This document shows, one piece after another, positions 1,111-23,537 of a stretch of 32,953 nt of DNA. The stretch is from Myxococcales bacterium (GTDB lineage Bacteria; Myxococcota_A; Polyangia; GCA-2747355). The translations under genes were made by a program, and so were the position numbers. Position 1 is the first letter of the stretch; the number at the start of each line of letters is the position of its first letter. The stretch is taken from assembly GCA_020431405.1 (NCBI GenBank), contig JAGQIK010000345.1, positions 1 through 32,953 on the forward strand. Direction: 5' to 3'. Under the pieces are notes generated by a model. It had not been told where the DNA came from and ran no database searches. It saw only the letters and a list, made by a program, of their open reading frames with translations.

Positions 1111-3150
1111 ATGAATCCGCTCGGCCGCGCCGCCACGATCCTTGCCGCGACGATCCTCGCCGCCACGCTCGCCCTCGTCGGGGGCGTGCGATCCGCCCAC
1201 GCCCAAGGCTTCGCCGTCAAAGACATCATTTTCGCCGAGGTCGACGCCCAGGGAAACGAGACGCGCCGCCTCACCGAGAGCGAGCTCGTCGACTACTTCG
1301 GCCGCGCGCGCTGCGACTGTGACGCCGAGATCAAAGTCATCATCCGCATCACGCCCGATTCGAAACAGCTCGGCACGTTCAAAGTCGTCAGCGGCACCAC
1401 CGACTGCATCAACAACACGACCAACGAGATACTCGACAACTGCCAGATCCACAAAGAAGGGCGCATCCAGGACCAGCGCACCGACATCGAGTTCAACGTC
1501 AAGGCGTCGGCGCTGATGACGCTGCCCGGCGGCAACTGCGACTCGGTGGGCGAAAAGACGATCACGATCTCGGTCCTCACCGATCAGAACAACGACCAGT
1601 ACGCCGCGCAGGCCAAGAACCGCGTCATCACCGTCGACACCGCGCCGCCGCTGGCGCCCATCGCCCCTTCGGGCGACGCGACGCTGGCGGGCGAAGGTCT
1701 GGTCAAGGTCACCTTCGAGAAGCCCTCCACCGACGAGCAGAACGTCGAGTACCAGATCCTGTGCCGCATCAAGGACAACCCGACGGCCGACCCGCTGCCT
1801 AACACCAGCCACACGCCGCGCTTTCAGTCCGCCGCCAACATCTGCCCCACACGCACCCAGACCGCCGGTGACGCCGGCATGCGCGCCACCGATCAGGGCG
1901 TCTCCGACACCACGGAAGACTTCTTCGTCGATTTCGGCAACGAGGACTTCAGCGTCGACGGCGACGCCTCGCCGGTCTCCGACGCGGGCGTCGACGACGC
2001 CGCGGCGACGGGCAGCGACGAGCTGCTCTCGGCGCAGTTCGTCTGCTCCGATCACCTCACCTCGGCAGGCTCGGTCTCGGTGAGCGGCCTGACCAACGGC
2101 GTGACCTACGAGTTCTACGTCGTCGCCATCGACAAGCGCCGCAACGCCAGCACCATCACCTACCTCGGCGAGGAGACGCCCGCCGCCGAGGAGGACCTCT
2201 GGGAGCGCTACAAGCGCGCCGGCGGCGGCGCCAGCGGCGGCTGCGCGCTCGGCAACGACCCGCTCGATGGCGGCACCATCGGCCTGCTCGCGCTGCTCGG
2301 CGCGCTGCTCGGCACGATGCGCCGGCGACGCCGCAAGCGCCTCGCGCGCGGCGCGCGCGCAGCCGGCAAGGGCAAAGGCAAGAGCAAGGCGCTGCTGCTG
2401 GCCCTCATCGTCGGCGTCGGCGCCACCGCCACGGTGCGCGTCGCCCACGCGCAGGGGCGCATCGACCCACAGATCGTCGACGACAGCGAGTATCACTCGC
2501 CGCAGTGGTTCGCCGCCGAGTTCAAGCTCGGCCCCTACAAGCCGAGCATCGATAGCGAGTTCTCGGGCGACGGCCCCTACGCGCGCATCTTCGACGGCGG
2601 CGGCCTGATGCTGCGCTGGGAGTTCGACGTCCAGGTCTGGCACGGCTTCGGCAGCCTCGGCATCGGCGTCGTCGGCGGCTACTTTCGCCGCTCGGCGCAG
2701 GCCTTCATCGACGATGGTGGCGGCGGCACATCGAGCGGCACCGAGCGCTCGGGCGGCGAGACGTCGATCATGCTGGTGCCGATCTCGGTGCTCGCCGTCT
2801 ATCGATTCGACGTGCTGGCCAACCGCTGGCACATCCCCGTGGTGCCGTTCGTCAAGTTCGGCGTCAACTACACGCTGTGGTGGATCTTCAACGGCTCGGG
2901 CGACGTGGCCAGCGTCGACGGCGACAAGGCGCGCGGCGGCAGCTGGGGCCTCGCTTTCAACGCCGGCCTGGCGCTGCAGCTCGACTTTCTCGAACCCGGC
3001 GCGGCCAAGACGCTCGACGCCGAGGTCGGCATCAACCACACCTACCTGTTCTTCGAGTTCGCCTATACCGGCGCTGACGGCTTTGGCGCGGCAGGCAAGC
3101 TCGATGTCGGCGACGCCACCTGGCAGGCCGGCCTCGCCTTCGAGTTCTGA
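1111..3150 (+). CDS. Fusion of a MYXO-CTERM-anchored protein with an outer-membrane beta-barrel protein
   Basis: The 679-residue product starts at ATG 1111, with GAGG about 8 nt upstream. Residues 1-31 form a signal peptide ending AHA. Residues 32-370 are a Cys-containing extracellular region with a fibronectin-III-like part near 175-365. Residues 371-420 look like a complete MYXO-CTERM signal: GGCALG with Cys378, a hydrophobic helix (about 388-402) and a basic run from 404. A second signal-peptide-like segment (about 424-447, again ending AHA) follows without a stop, then a 230-residue beta-barrel-like domain ending in Phe, as outer-membrane proteins do. From memory, myxobacteria encode such parts as separate adjacent genes (MXAN_2561-type anchored protein and MXAN_2562-type barrel). 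Here they share one frame. ATG 2317 (Met403) could start the barrel independently, but it lacks a clear ribosome-binding site. truA follows 3 nt downstream. Confidence 0.75.
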   Translation: MNPLGRAATILAATILAATLALVGGVRSAHAQGFAVKDIIFAEVDAQGNETRRLTESELVDYFGRARCDCDAEIKVIIRITPDSKQLGTFKVVSGTTDCINNTTNEILDNCQIHKEGRIQDQRTDIEFNVKASALMTLPGGNCDSVGEKTITISVLTDQNNDQYAAQAKNRVITVDTAPPLAPIAPSGDATLAGEGLVKVTFEKPSTDEQNVEYQILCRIKDNPTADPLPNTSHTPRFQSAANICPTRTQTAGDAGMRATDQGVSDTTEDFFVDFGNEDFSVDGDASPVSDAGVDDAAATGSDELLSAQFVCSDHLTSAGSVSVSGLTNGVTYEFYVVAIDKRRNASTITYLGEETPAAEEDLWERYKRAGGGASGGCALGNDPLDGGTIGLLALLGALLGTMRRRRRKRLARGARAAGKGKGKSKALLLALIVGVGATATVRVAHAQGRIDPQIVDDSEYHSPQWFAAEFKLGPYKPSIDSEFSGDGPYARIFDGGGLMLRWEFDVQVWHGFGSLGIGVVGGYFRRSAQAFIDDGGGGTSSGTERSGGETSIMLVPISVLAVYRFDVLANRWHIPVVPFVKFGVNYTLWWIFNGSGDVASVDGDKARGGSWGLAFNAGLALQLDFLEPGAAKTLDAEVGINHTYLFFEFAYTGADGFGAAGKLDVGDATWQAGLAFEF

Positions 3151-3153
3151 GCG

Positions 3154-3900
3154 GTGCGCAACCTGCTGCTGACCATCGCCTACGACGGGGCGGACTTCTC
3201 CGGTTGGCAGCGCAACCCCGGCGCGCGCACGGTGCAGGCGACCATCGAGGCCGTGCTGCGCGAGATGACACAGGACGAGACCGTCACCTTGCGCGTCACC
3301 GGACGCACCGACGCCGGCGTGCACGCGCTCGGGCAGCTCGCCGCCTTCAAGACCGAGTCCGCGATCGCCGAGCAGCGCTTCTTGCGCGGGCTCAACTCGC
3401 TTCTGCCCGACAGCGTCAGCATCCTCGCGGTCGAGAGCGTCCCGCTCGACTACAACCCGCGCCACAAAAACGCGGGCAAGCACTACCGCTACACGATCTG
3501 GAATCACCGCGAGATCGCGCCGGCAGACAAGCGGCGCGCCTGGCACATCTACGGTGCCGTCGACCGCATGCAGATGGCGCGCGCTGCGCGCTTGCTGGTC
3601 GGCACGCACGACTTCGCCGCCTTTCGCGCTGCCGACTGCGAGCGCCCCAGCACCACGCGCACGCTCTATCGCGTCACCGTCAGCGAGCTGCAAGCGAGGC
3701 GCGAGCTGCGCATCGACGTCGAGGGCACGGCGTTTCTCAAGAACATGGTGCGCATCATCGCGGGCACGCTGCTCGACATCGGCCGCGGCAAGCTGCCGCT
3801 CGAGCTGGTGCACGAGCTGCTCGAAAGCGGCGACCGCACCCGCGCCGGCATCACCGCCCCCCCGCACGGCCTTTGCCTCGTGCGCGTGCTGCGTCCCTGA
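3154..3900 (+). CDS. truA: tRNA pseudouridine synthase A (tRNA U38-40)
   Basis: The 248-residue protein converts uridines 38-40 of tRNA anticodon arms to pseudouridine in the cytoplasm. The N-terminal LTIAYDGADFSGWQRNP block is typical of TruA. The catalytic motif RTDAGVHA places the nucleophilic Asp at residue 53. The conserved HYRYTIWN, FAAFRA and FLKNMVRI blocks are all present, and the length matches the family. It uses a GTG start 3 nt after the stop of the fused barrel gene, which suggests translational coupling. There is no obvious ribosome-binding site of its own apart from the upstream coding tail. Confidence 0.96.
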   Translation: MRNLLLTIAYDGADFSGWQRNPGARTVQATIEAVLREMTQDETVTLRVTGRTDAGVHALGQLAAFKTESAIAEQRFLRGLNSLLPDSVSILAVESVPLDYNPRHKNAGKHYRYTIWNHREIAPADKRRAWHIYGAVDRMQMARAARLLVGTHDFAAFRAADCERPSTTRTLYRVTVSELQARRELRIDVEGTAFLKNMVRIIAGTLLDIGRGKLPLELVHELLESGDRTRAGITAPPHGLCLVRVLRP

Positions 3901-5005: not shown

Positions 5006-5060
5006 CGCGCCGGCCCGCATCCGAGGCCATAGCGGCTTGGCTTCGCGCTATGCTGCGCGC

Positions 5061-6005
5061 ATGGCCAAATATCGCATCCTCAGCCTCGATGGCGGCGGCG
5101 TGCGCGGCGTCTACACCGCCGTGCTGCTCAAGCGCCTCGAAGCGCGCGCGCCCGGTTTTCTCGCCAGCATCGATCTGTTCGCCGGCACGTCCACAGGCGG
5201 CATCATCGCGCTCGCGCTGGCCTTCGGCCTCACGCCTGACGATCTGATCGAGCTCTACCACGACAACGCCGAGGCGATCTTCGCTGACTCCATCGCCGAC
5301 GACATGCGCGACCTCGGCAAGCTGCTCGGCGCCGACTACGACCAGGGCCCGCTGCGCAAGCTGCTCGAGGAGCGCTTCGGCGACAAGGTGCTCGGCGATC
5401 TGGTCAAGCGCGTGCTGATCTCGGCGTTCGACCTCGATCCTGGCGAGGATCAGCCCGAGCGCGTCTGGCAGCCGCGCTTCTTTCACAACTACCCGCCGGC
5501 GCCCGGCAAGCCCGACGACCGCACCGCGCGCATCGTCGACGTAGCCCTCGCCACCAGCGCGGCGCCGACGTTCTTCCCGAGCTACCGCGGCTATGTCGAC
5601 GGCGGCGTGGCCGCCAACAACCCGAGCATGTGCGCGCTGGCCCAGGCGCTCGACAAGCACACCGGCAAGCAGAAGCTCGAGGACATTCGGCTGCTCTCGC
5701 TGAGCACCGGCGTCGATCCGCGCGTCGTCACCGGCGACACGCTCGACTGGGGCTACGTGCAGTGGGCGCCGGTGCTGGTGCACATGATGATCGAAGGGCC
5801 GATGCAGACAGCGCACTACCAGTGCAAACGCCTGCTCGGCGAGACCGGCTATCGCCGCGTGGCGCCGCTGTTGCCGCGCGCCATCGGCCTCGACGGCGCC
5901 AAGCACGTGGCCGATCTCATCGAATACGCCAACGACGTCGACCTCGACGCCCCCGCGCCGCTCGGTGTCGCCGAGTGGGTCAAGGCCGAGCTGGCGCCCG
6001 AATAG
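5061..6005 (+). CDS. Patatin-like phospholipase
   Basis: The 314-residue protein has the full patatin signature. The oxyanion-hole motif DGGGVRG is at residues 10-16. The nucleophile elbow GTSTG has Ser44. The catalytic-dyad Asp180 sits in the DGG motif within YVDGGVAANNP. Patatins are Ser-Asp lipid acyl hydrolases. No signal peptide is visible, so it is probably cytoplasmic. ATG 5061 gives MAKYRILSLDGGG, the usual short lead into the motif. A TTG 24 nt upstream is a weaker alternative. No strong Shine-Dalgarno is seen. It converges on an SRPBCC protein and lies near an acyl-CoA synthetase, so a role in lipid turnover is plausible. A phage-defence (CapV-like) role is not supported, because no cyclase or partner gene is adjacent. 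Confidence 0.92.
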   Translation: MAKYRILSLDGGGVRGVYTAVLLKRLEARAPGFLASIDLFAGTSTGGIIALALAFGLTPDDLIELYHDNAEAIFADSIADDMRDLGKLLGADYDQGPLRKLLEERFGDKVLGDLVKRVLISAFDLDPGEDQPERVWQPRFFHNYPPAPGKPDDRTARIVDVALATSAAPTFFPSYRGYVDGGVAANNPSMCALAQALDKHTGKQKLEDIRLLSLSTGVDPRVVTGDTLDWGYVQWAPVLVHMMIEGPMQTAHYQCKRLLGETGYRRVAPLLPRAIGLDGAKHVADLIEYANDVDLDAPAPLGVAEWVKAELAPE

Positions 6006-23066: not shown

Positions 23067-23537
23067 TTAGCGATGGCGAGGCGCGCGGCGGCGGCGGCGG
23101 CGGGCCAGCGCCAGCGCGGCGCCGAACAGAAGCGAGAGCAGCGCGCTCGCGCCGAAACCCTCGGACGAGGGTGCGACGTTACAGCCGCCGCCGTCGTCCT
23201 TCTTGGTCGAGCCGGCGTCCTTGGTCGCCCCGCCGTCGGACGCTGCTGGCGCGTCGGGGCCGGGCAGGTTGTCGAGGCCCGGAGGCACCGCGTCGTAGTC
23301 GCCGATAGGCTCGCCGCTGGCGTCGGGCACCGTGCCGTCGGTGCATGCCGTGCCCGTGCCGCCGACGGTGCAGACGTTGTTGTTGCAGCGGTAGGCCGAG
23401 CCGAAGACGGCGCAGTCGCGATCACAGCCGCACGACGACGAGAAGTCCGGGAAGATCACGTCCGCGAAAGCCACGCTCGGCGCGACGAGCGTGAAGGTGA
23501 TGGCGATGATGGTGAGCGTGCGACCCTTGCTGAGCAT
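23067..23537 (-). CDS. Secreted MYXO-CTERM-anchored Cys-rich protein
   Basis: The 156-residue protein starts at ATG 23537 after GGAGG. Residues 1-25 form a signal peptide ending AFA. Residues 35-65 hold six Cys in a short disulphide-rich segment (CGC, DC, RC, VC, AC). A Pro/Asp/Gly-rich spacer follows, then the MYXO-CTERM tail: GGGCN with Cys119, hydrophobic helix about 128-145, and a run of six Arg. Such tails are thought to be processed by a rhombosortase-like system and to tether the protein to the cell surface. Function is unknown. It is 65 nt upstream of ileS on the same strand. Confidence 0.9.
   Translation of the reverse strand: MLSKGRTLTIIAITFTLVAPSVAFADVIFPDFSSSCGCDRDCAVFGSAYRCNNNVCTVGGTGTACTDGTVPDASGEPIGDYDAVPPGLDNLPGPDAPAASDGGATKDAGSTKKDDGGGCNVAPSSEGFGASALLSLLFGAALALARRRRRRAPRHR

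Follow-up and report, generated by a model that had tools for sequence, protein, structure and literature searches.

A single open reading frame at positions 1111–3150 of the forward strand most likely encodes two partner envelope proteins as one fused precursor, in which both processing signals are intact. The frame lies in the window analyzed here, a contig stretch of 32,953 nucleotides (GenBank assembly GCA_020431405.1, contig JAGQIK010000345.1) from an uncultured myxobacterial relative; it stays open for 679 codons, encodes 679 amino acids, and occurs once in the host genome. Given that both cutting signals are kept at the join, one long precursor is most likely cut into two partners. The best explanation of the locus, and one that we consider fairly probable, is that the fused precursor is read through and cut twice, yielding 1:1 partners that probably act in a complex.

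The frame begins with a signal peptide (1111–1203, residues 1–31, ending AHA31), which is followed by an N-terminal surface domain (1204–2190) composed of two FN3-like β-sandwiches at about residues 34–355, as supported by an AlphaFold2 model, by a fold comparison that matches FN3 tandems, and by weak Pfam fn3 similarity; within this domain, an Asp/Ala-rich stretch (residues 253–299) is modeled with low confidence. An internal MYXO-CTERM-like sorting tag (2221–2334) comes next and contains Cys378 (codon 2242–2244), a hydrophobic stretch at residues 388–403 that the model extends to a helix at 388–415, and the run RRRRRKR. A basic linker (2320–2394), predicted to form a cytoplasmic loop and devoid of a Shine–Dalgarno core, separates this helix from a second signal peptide (2395–2451), whose hydrophobic core starts at residue 429 and whose predicted cut follows Ala447 (AHA447). 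The original prediction of one open frame carrying an internal MYXO-CTERM signal and a second signal peptide thus describes the sequence correctly, as does its placement of a β-barrel domain after the latter: positions 2497–3147 encode an eight-stranded outer-membrane β-barrel of the MXAN_2562 family (NF040596, residues 467–679, E 3.9e-68, 229 bits, above the curated NCBIfam cut-off of 100 bits), and the modeled barrel (strands within 467–678) matches OmpA, NspA, and OmpW at Z 13–15. The full model has a mean pLDDT of 76, with low confidence at residues 413–452. The MXAN_2561 family of MYXO-CTERM proteins (NF045522) is matched at residues 313–408, which cover the region ahead of the tag plus the tag itself, with 72 bits, below the curated NCBIfam cut-off of 150 bits, and the N-terminal half is a distant relative of the MXAN_2561 family proper. 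Both NCBIfam families match within this one frame, so the earlier naming of the halves as MXAN_2561/2562 types is correct. The next gene, truA (3154–3900, forward strand), starts 3 nucleotides past the barrel stop and lies outside the precursor; truA is a frequent neighbor, found after the barrel in 40 of 112 loci that span distant families. Farther along the window (5037–6005, forward strand) is a gene for a patatin-like phospholipase that reaches 197.7 bits in the model for CBASS cGAMP-activated phospholipases, whose cut-off is 200, and that is a possible anti-phage effector.

The two halves had been proposed to occur as separate neighboring genes in other myxobacteria, with a comparison of fusion state across Myxococcota genomes as a check. 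Across the phylum and a set of named genome contigs, with genome groups given as codes and many assemblies being drafts, 237 distinct related loci were identified; the genome scan used a closer set of six barrels, the broad barrel alignment being too poorly conserved. The halves are indeed separate genes in 186 of these loci and fused in 47, the remaining 4 having no detected first half, so that an MXAN_2561-type half directly precedes the MXAN_2562 barrel, as a pair or as a fusion, in 233 of 237. Fusions are present in 15 coded family groups, and some of the assemblies that carry them are single contigs (G065, G135, and G192). A tree of 236 barrels implies 16 changes of state between fused and separate (shuffled labels require 43), with lower bounds of 13 when branches below 80 are collapsed and 6 when those below 95 are collapsed; this tree was built by a quick method from about 210 columns of a short domain and has many weak branches. 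The fused state therefore recurs across the phylum. Three fused clades of 13, 10, and 8 loci, in which barrel identity falls to 44, 56, and 34%, respectively, are old, and no stop or frameshift was found in them. The linker diverges faster than the barrel, and the tag cysteine is retained in 47 of 47 fused loci. The A-x-A site is retained in 46 of 47, a count that is weak by itself given a shuffled expectation of 36. Many relatives, both fused and separate (L010, L012, L068, L168, and others), have in place of the short MYXO-CTERM a longer tail before the arginine run, often with CFxATxxYG; the type of tag thus seems to have been exchanged within this family.

The elements noted by eye at residues 371–420, namely Cys378, a hydrophobic helix, and an Arg/Lys run, correspond to the tripartite MYXO-CTERM pattern (a GGCALG Cys motif, a transmembrane helix, and RRRRRKR), and the TIGR03901 score is 14.5 bits, below the cut-off of 20. 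The tag is not C-terminal, as about 270 residues follow it; when the other tags in the genome are ranked by score, 27 of the top 30 are clearly C-terminal and the remaining 3 did not parse. The MYXO-CTERM of TraA is cut by myxosortase in a Cys-dependent manner, with lipidation forming part of the authors' model, and the same study describes internal MYXO-CTERM tags as rare, discussing one example, MXAN_5598 (PMC11980579). We infer that myxosortase would cut the internal tag at Cys378. Alternatively, the full chain could be made and cut by signal peptidase I only, in which case a two-helix anchor would hold the N-terminal half in the inner membrane. The score of the tag below the MYXO-CTERM cut-off is in keeping with this reading, as is the fact that cutting of an internal tag is a proposal even for MXAN_5598; however, the cysteine is invariant among fused homologs, the host genome encodes a myxosortase-family protease (NF040914, 137.6 bits, cut-off 100; among specific models MrtP fits best, though under its own cut-off), and LPXTG and an archaeal tag show that sorting tags can work inside proteins (PMC11980579), and we regard a single cut as improbable. 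The host genome (G000) has about 85 MYXO-CTERM matches above the cut-off, counted in six frames and not from gene calls, which is at the high end for the phylum; up to 73 MYXO-CTERM proteins are reported for Chondromyces crocatus (PMC11980579). Within the window, another MYXO-CTERM tag (23088–23195, reverse strand; 24 bits, above the cut-off) lies in a short frame without a Pfam domain.

The separate state is a tightly coupled four-base overlap. In 168 of 186 separate pairs, a start codon in frame with the barrel shares exactly 4 nucleotides with the end of the tagged gene, stop codon included, compared with 11 of 110 for the control, the junction after the barrel stop, and a start chosen by Shine–Dalgarno strength falls at −4 in 127 of 162 separate pairs. 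Overlaps of this kind are known to link the translation of the two genes and are overrepresented among genes whose products are subunits of complexes (PMC6728339, PMC10666635). The Shine–Dalgarno sequence of the barrel gene is written in the arginine codons of the tag; in a Myxococcus example, aggaggaagcagtcATGA encodes RRKQS and the stop codon while carrying this signal. AGG and AGA account for 28% of arginine codons in the tag tails of separate genes, 6.6% in fused arginine runs, and 5.3% in barrels, and the drop in fused runs relative to separate tails has a Fisher p of 7e-13, calculated on rows that are not independent. A Shine–Dalgarno core is found in 166 of 185 separate and 9 of 47 fused loci. 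By clades, 8 fused clades lack the core where the nearest separate relative has one, 0 show the reverse, and 8 are equal (p 0.008 for 8 to 0), a comparison that rests on weaker branches; limited to well-supported branches, a test on independent pairs has too few pairs for significance. Two loci in the window's own genome (L193 and L206) contain MYXO-CTERM genes that overlap by four bases with long lipoprotein-like genes (MSR...GC) and are perhaps further coupled pairs.

The loss of these signals bears on the earlier suggestion that the barrel may start separately at an in-frame ATG at 2317 (2317–2319, forward strand). In this reading, the open frame between the halves would be incidental. The ATG exists and is in frame at the join, with a basic stretch and then the second signal peptide downstream of it, which favors this reading. 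However, its Shine–Dalgarno energy is −1.7, whereas the barrel starts of separate genes have a median of −8.8; it has no Shine–Dalgarno core; and it lies off the ancestral start position, with 24 residues between it and the hydrophobic core instead of the about 6 seen in separate genes. Moreover, 17 of 35 fused frames examined, in which second signal peptides were called with strict rules plus inspection by eye, offer none of the codons ATG, GTG, and TTG in the interval from the tag helix to the core of the second signal peptide. Barring a non-standard start, the full-length chain is therefore the only possible source of the barrel in about half of the fused homologs. The absence of a stop or frameshift in the three old fused clades likewise argues against an incidental open frame. 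The use of ATG 2317 as the barrel start is unlikely, and we give separate synthesis of the barrel from it little credence.

A sequencing or assembly error, or a recent nonfunctional fusion confined to this genome, must also be considered, since the exact fusion of the window is a singleton known from one genome in a draft assembly and in its three nearest relatives the two genes are separate and overlap by four bases. One other fused locus (L061) does look accidental: it keeps a start with a Shine–Dalgarno-like signal, and a close sister is separate. A stop codon masked by an error near 2330–2400 had been named as a possible refutation; however, positions 2102–2553 contain no stop codon in any of the forward frames, none of the single insertions or deletions tested across the join restores the usual four-base overlap, and codon use in the linker is coding-like in the frame of the gene only. 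These observations make a hidden error unlikely and, for single changes, reject it. In addition, the ancestral start and its Shine–Dalgarno sequence are gone, which is beyond a mere bypass, and 46 further loci have the same type of fusion, exceeding chance by far, so that the fusion is not an isolated error. We therefore consider an error or a nonfunctional fusion very unlikely. Given that the three nearest relatives are separate, the fusion in the window is probably young and independent.

Returning to the precursor cut twice, we hypothesize that the ribosome would read through both halves, that export would be begun by the first signal peptide and halted by the MYXO-CTERM helix, and that the Arg/Lys linker would be kept in the cytoplasm until the second signal peptide restarts export, the outcome being an inner-membrane hairpin of two helices. 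A cut by signal peptidase I after AHA447 would then release the barrel, which would insert into the outer membrane, and the myxosortase-family protease would cut beside Cys378, thought to be lipidated first, releasing the FN3-like protein for surface anchoring. Since both halves are in one read-through chain, the two products would be made one to one, and they probably act as a complex; the fusion would take the place of the four-base stop/start overlap that couples both genes elsewhere. With somewhat less confidence, although we lean toward it, we propose that the locus encodes an envelope polyprotein that passes through an inner-membrane hairpin, is cut by two unrelated membrane proteases into equal amounts of an anchored protein and a barrel, and has switched many times in evolution with a four-base overlap whose ribosome-binding site is carried in the arginine codons of the tag.

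Internal MYXO-CTERM tags have a published precedent. Like the window gene, MXAN_5598 of Myxococcus xanthus (Guo, Haft and Wall 2025, PMC11980579) is one open reading frame with an internal MYXO-CTERM followed by an outer-membrane barrel, for which the authors suggest an origin by gene fusion and a processed N-terminal part; unlike the window gene, and as compared by published description only, it has a large adhesin region and a barrel plus an OmpA cell-wall domain. The MXAN_2561/MXAN_2562 pair (NF045522, NF040596) comprises the same two families in the same order, but as two genes that in most relatives overlap by four bases. In TraA/TraB of M. xanthus (PMC3325183), analogously, the gene for a MYXO-CTERM surface protein overlaps by four bases with that of the outer-membrane partner behind it, and the two proteins work together, but they come from separate genes with unrelated domains (PA14 and Cys repeats; an OmpA domain). 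Sorting tags away from the C terminus are also known as internal LPXTG tags and from an archaeosortase substrate whose tripartite tag is internal (PMC11980579), but these involve other enzymes, another envelope, and no outer-membrane barrel. In the literature, covered in part, we found no description of a recurrent MXAN_2561/2562 fusion, of the conserved four-base overlap, or of a Shine–Dalgarno sequence inside the tag, and nothing relevant on internal sorting signals or internal signal peptides in bacterial precursors.

These results mark MXAN_2561 and MXAN_2562, two functionally uncharacterized families, as likely partners of one complex, and the fused loci are natural substrates for testing whether myxosortase cuts an internal tag. 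Dozens of matched fused and separate pairs can be used to test why some envelope proteins need one-to-one synthesis. The comparison also reveals a constraint on coding, in that the sorting tag conceals a Shine–Dalgarno sequence; gene fusion relaxes this constraint.
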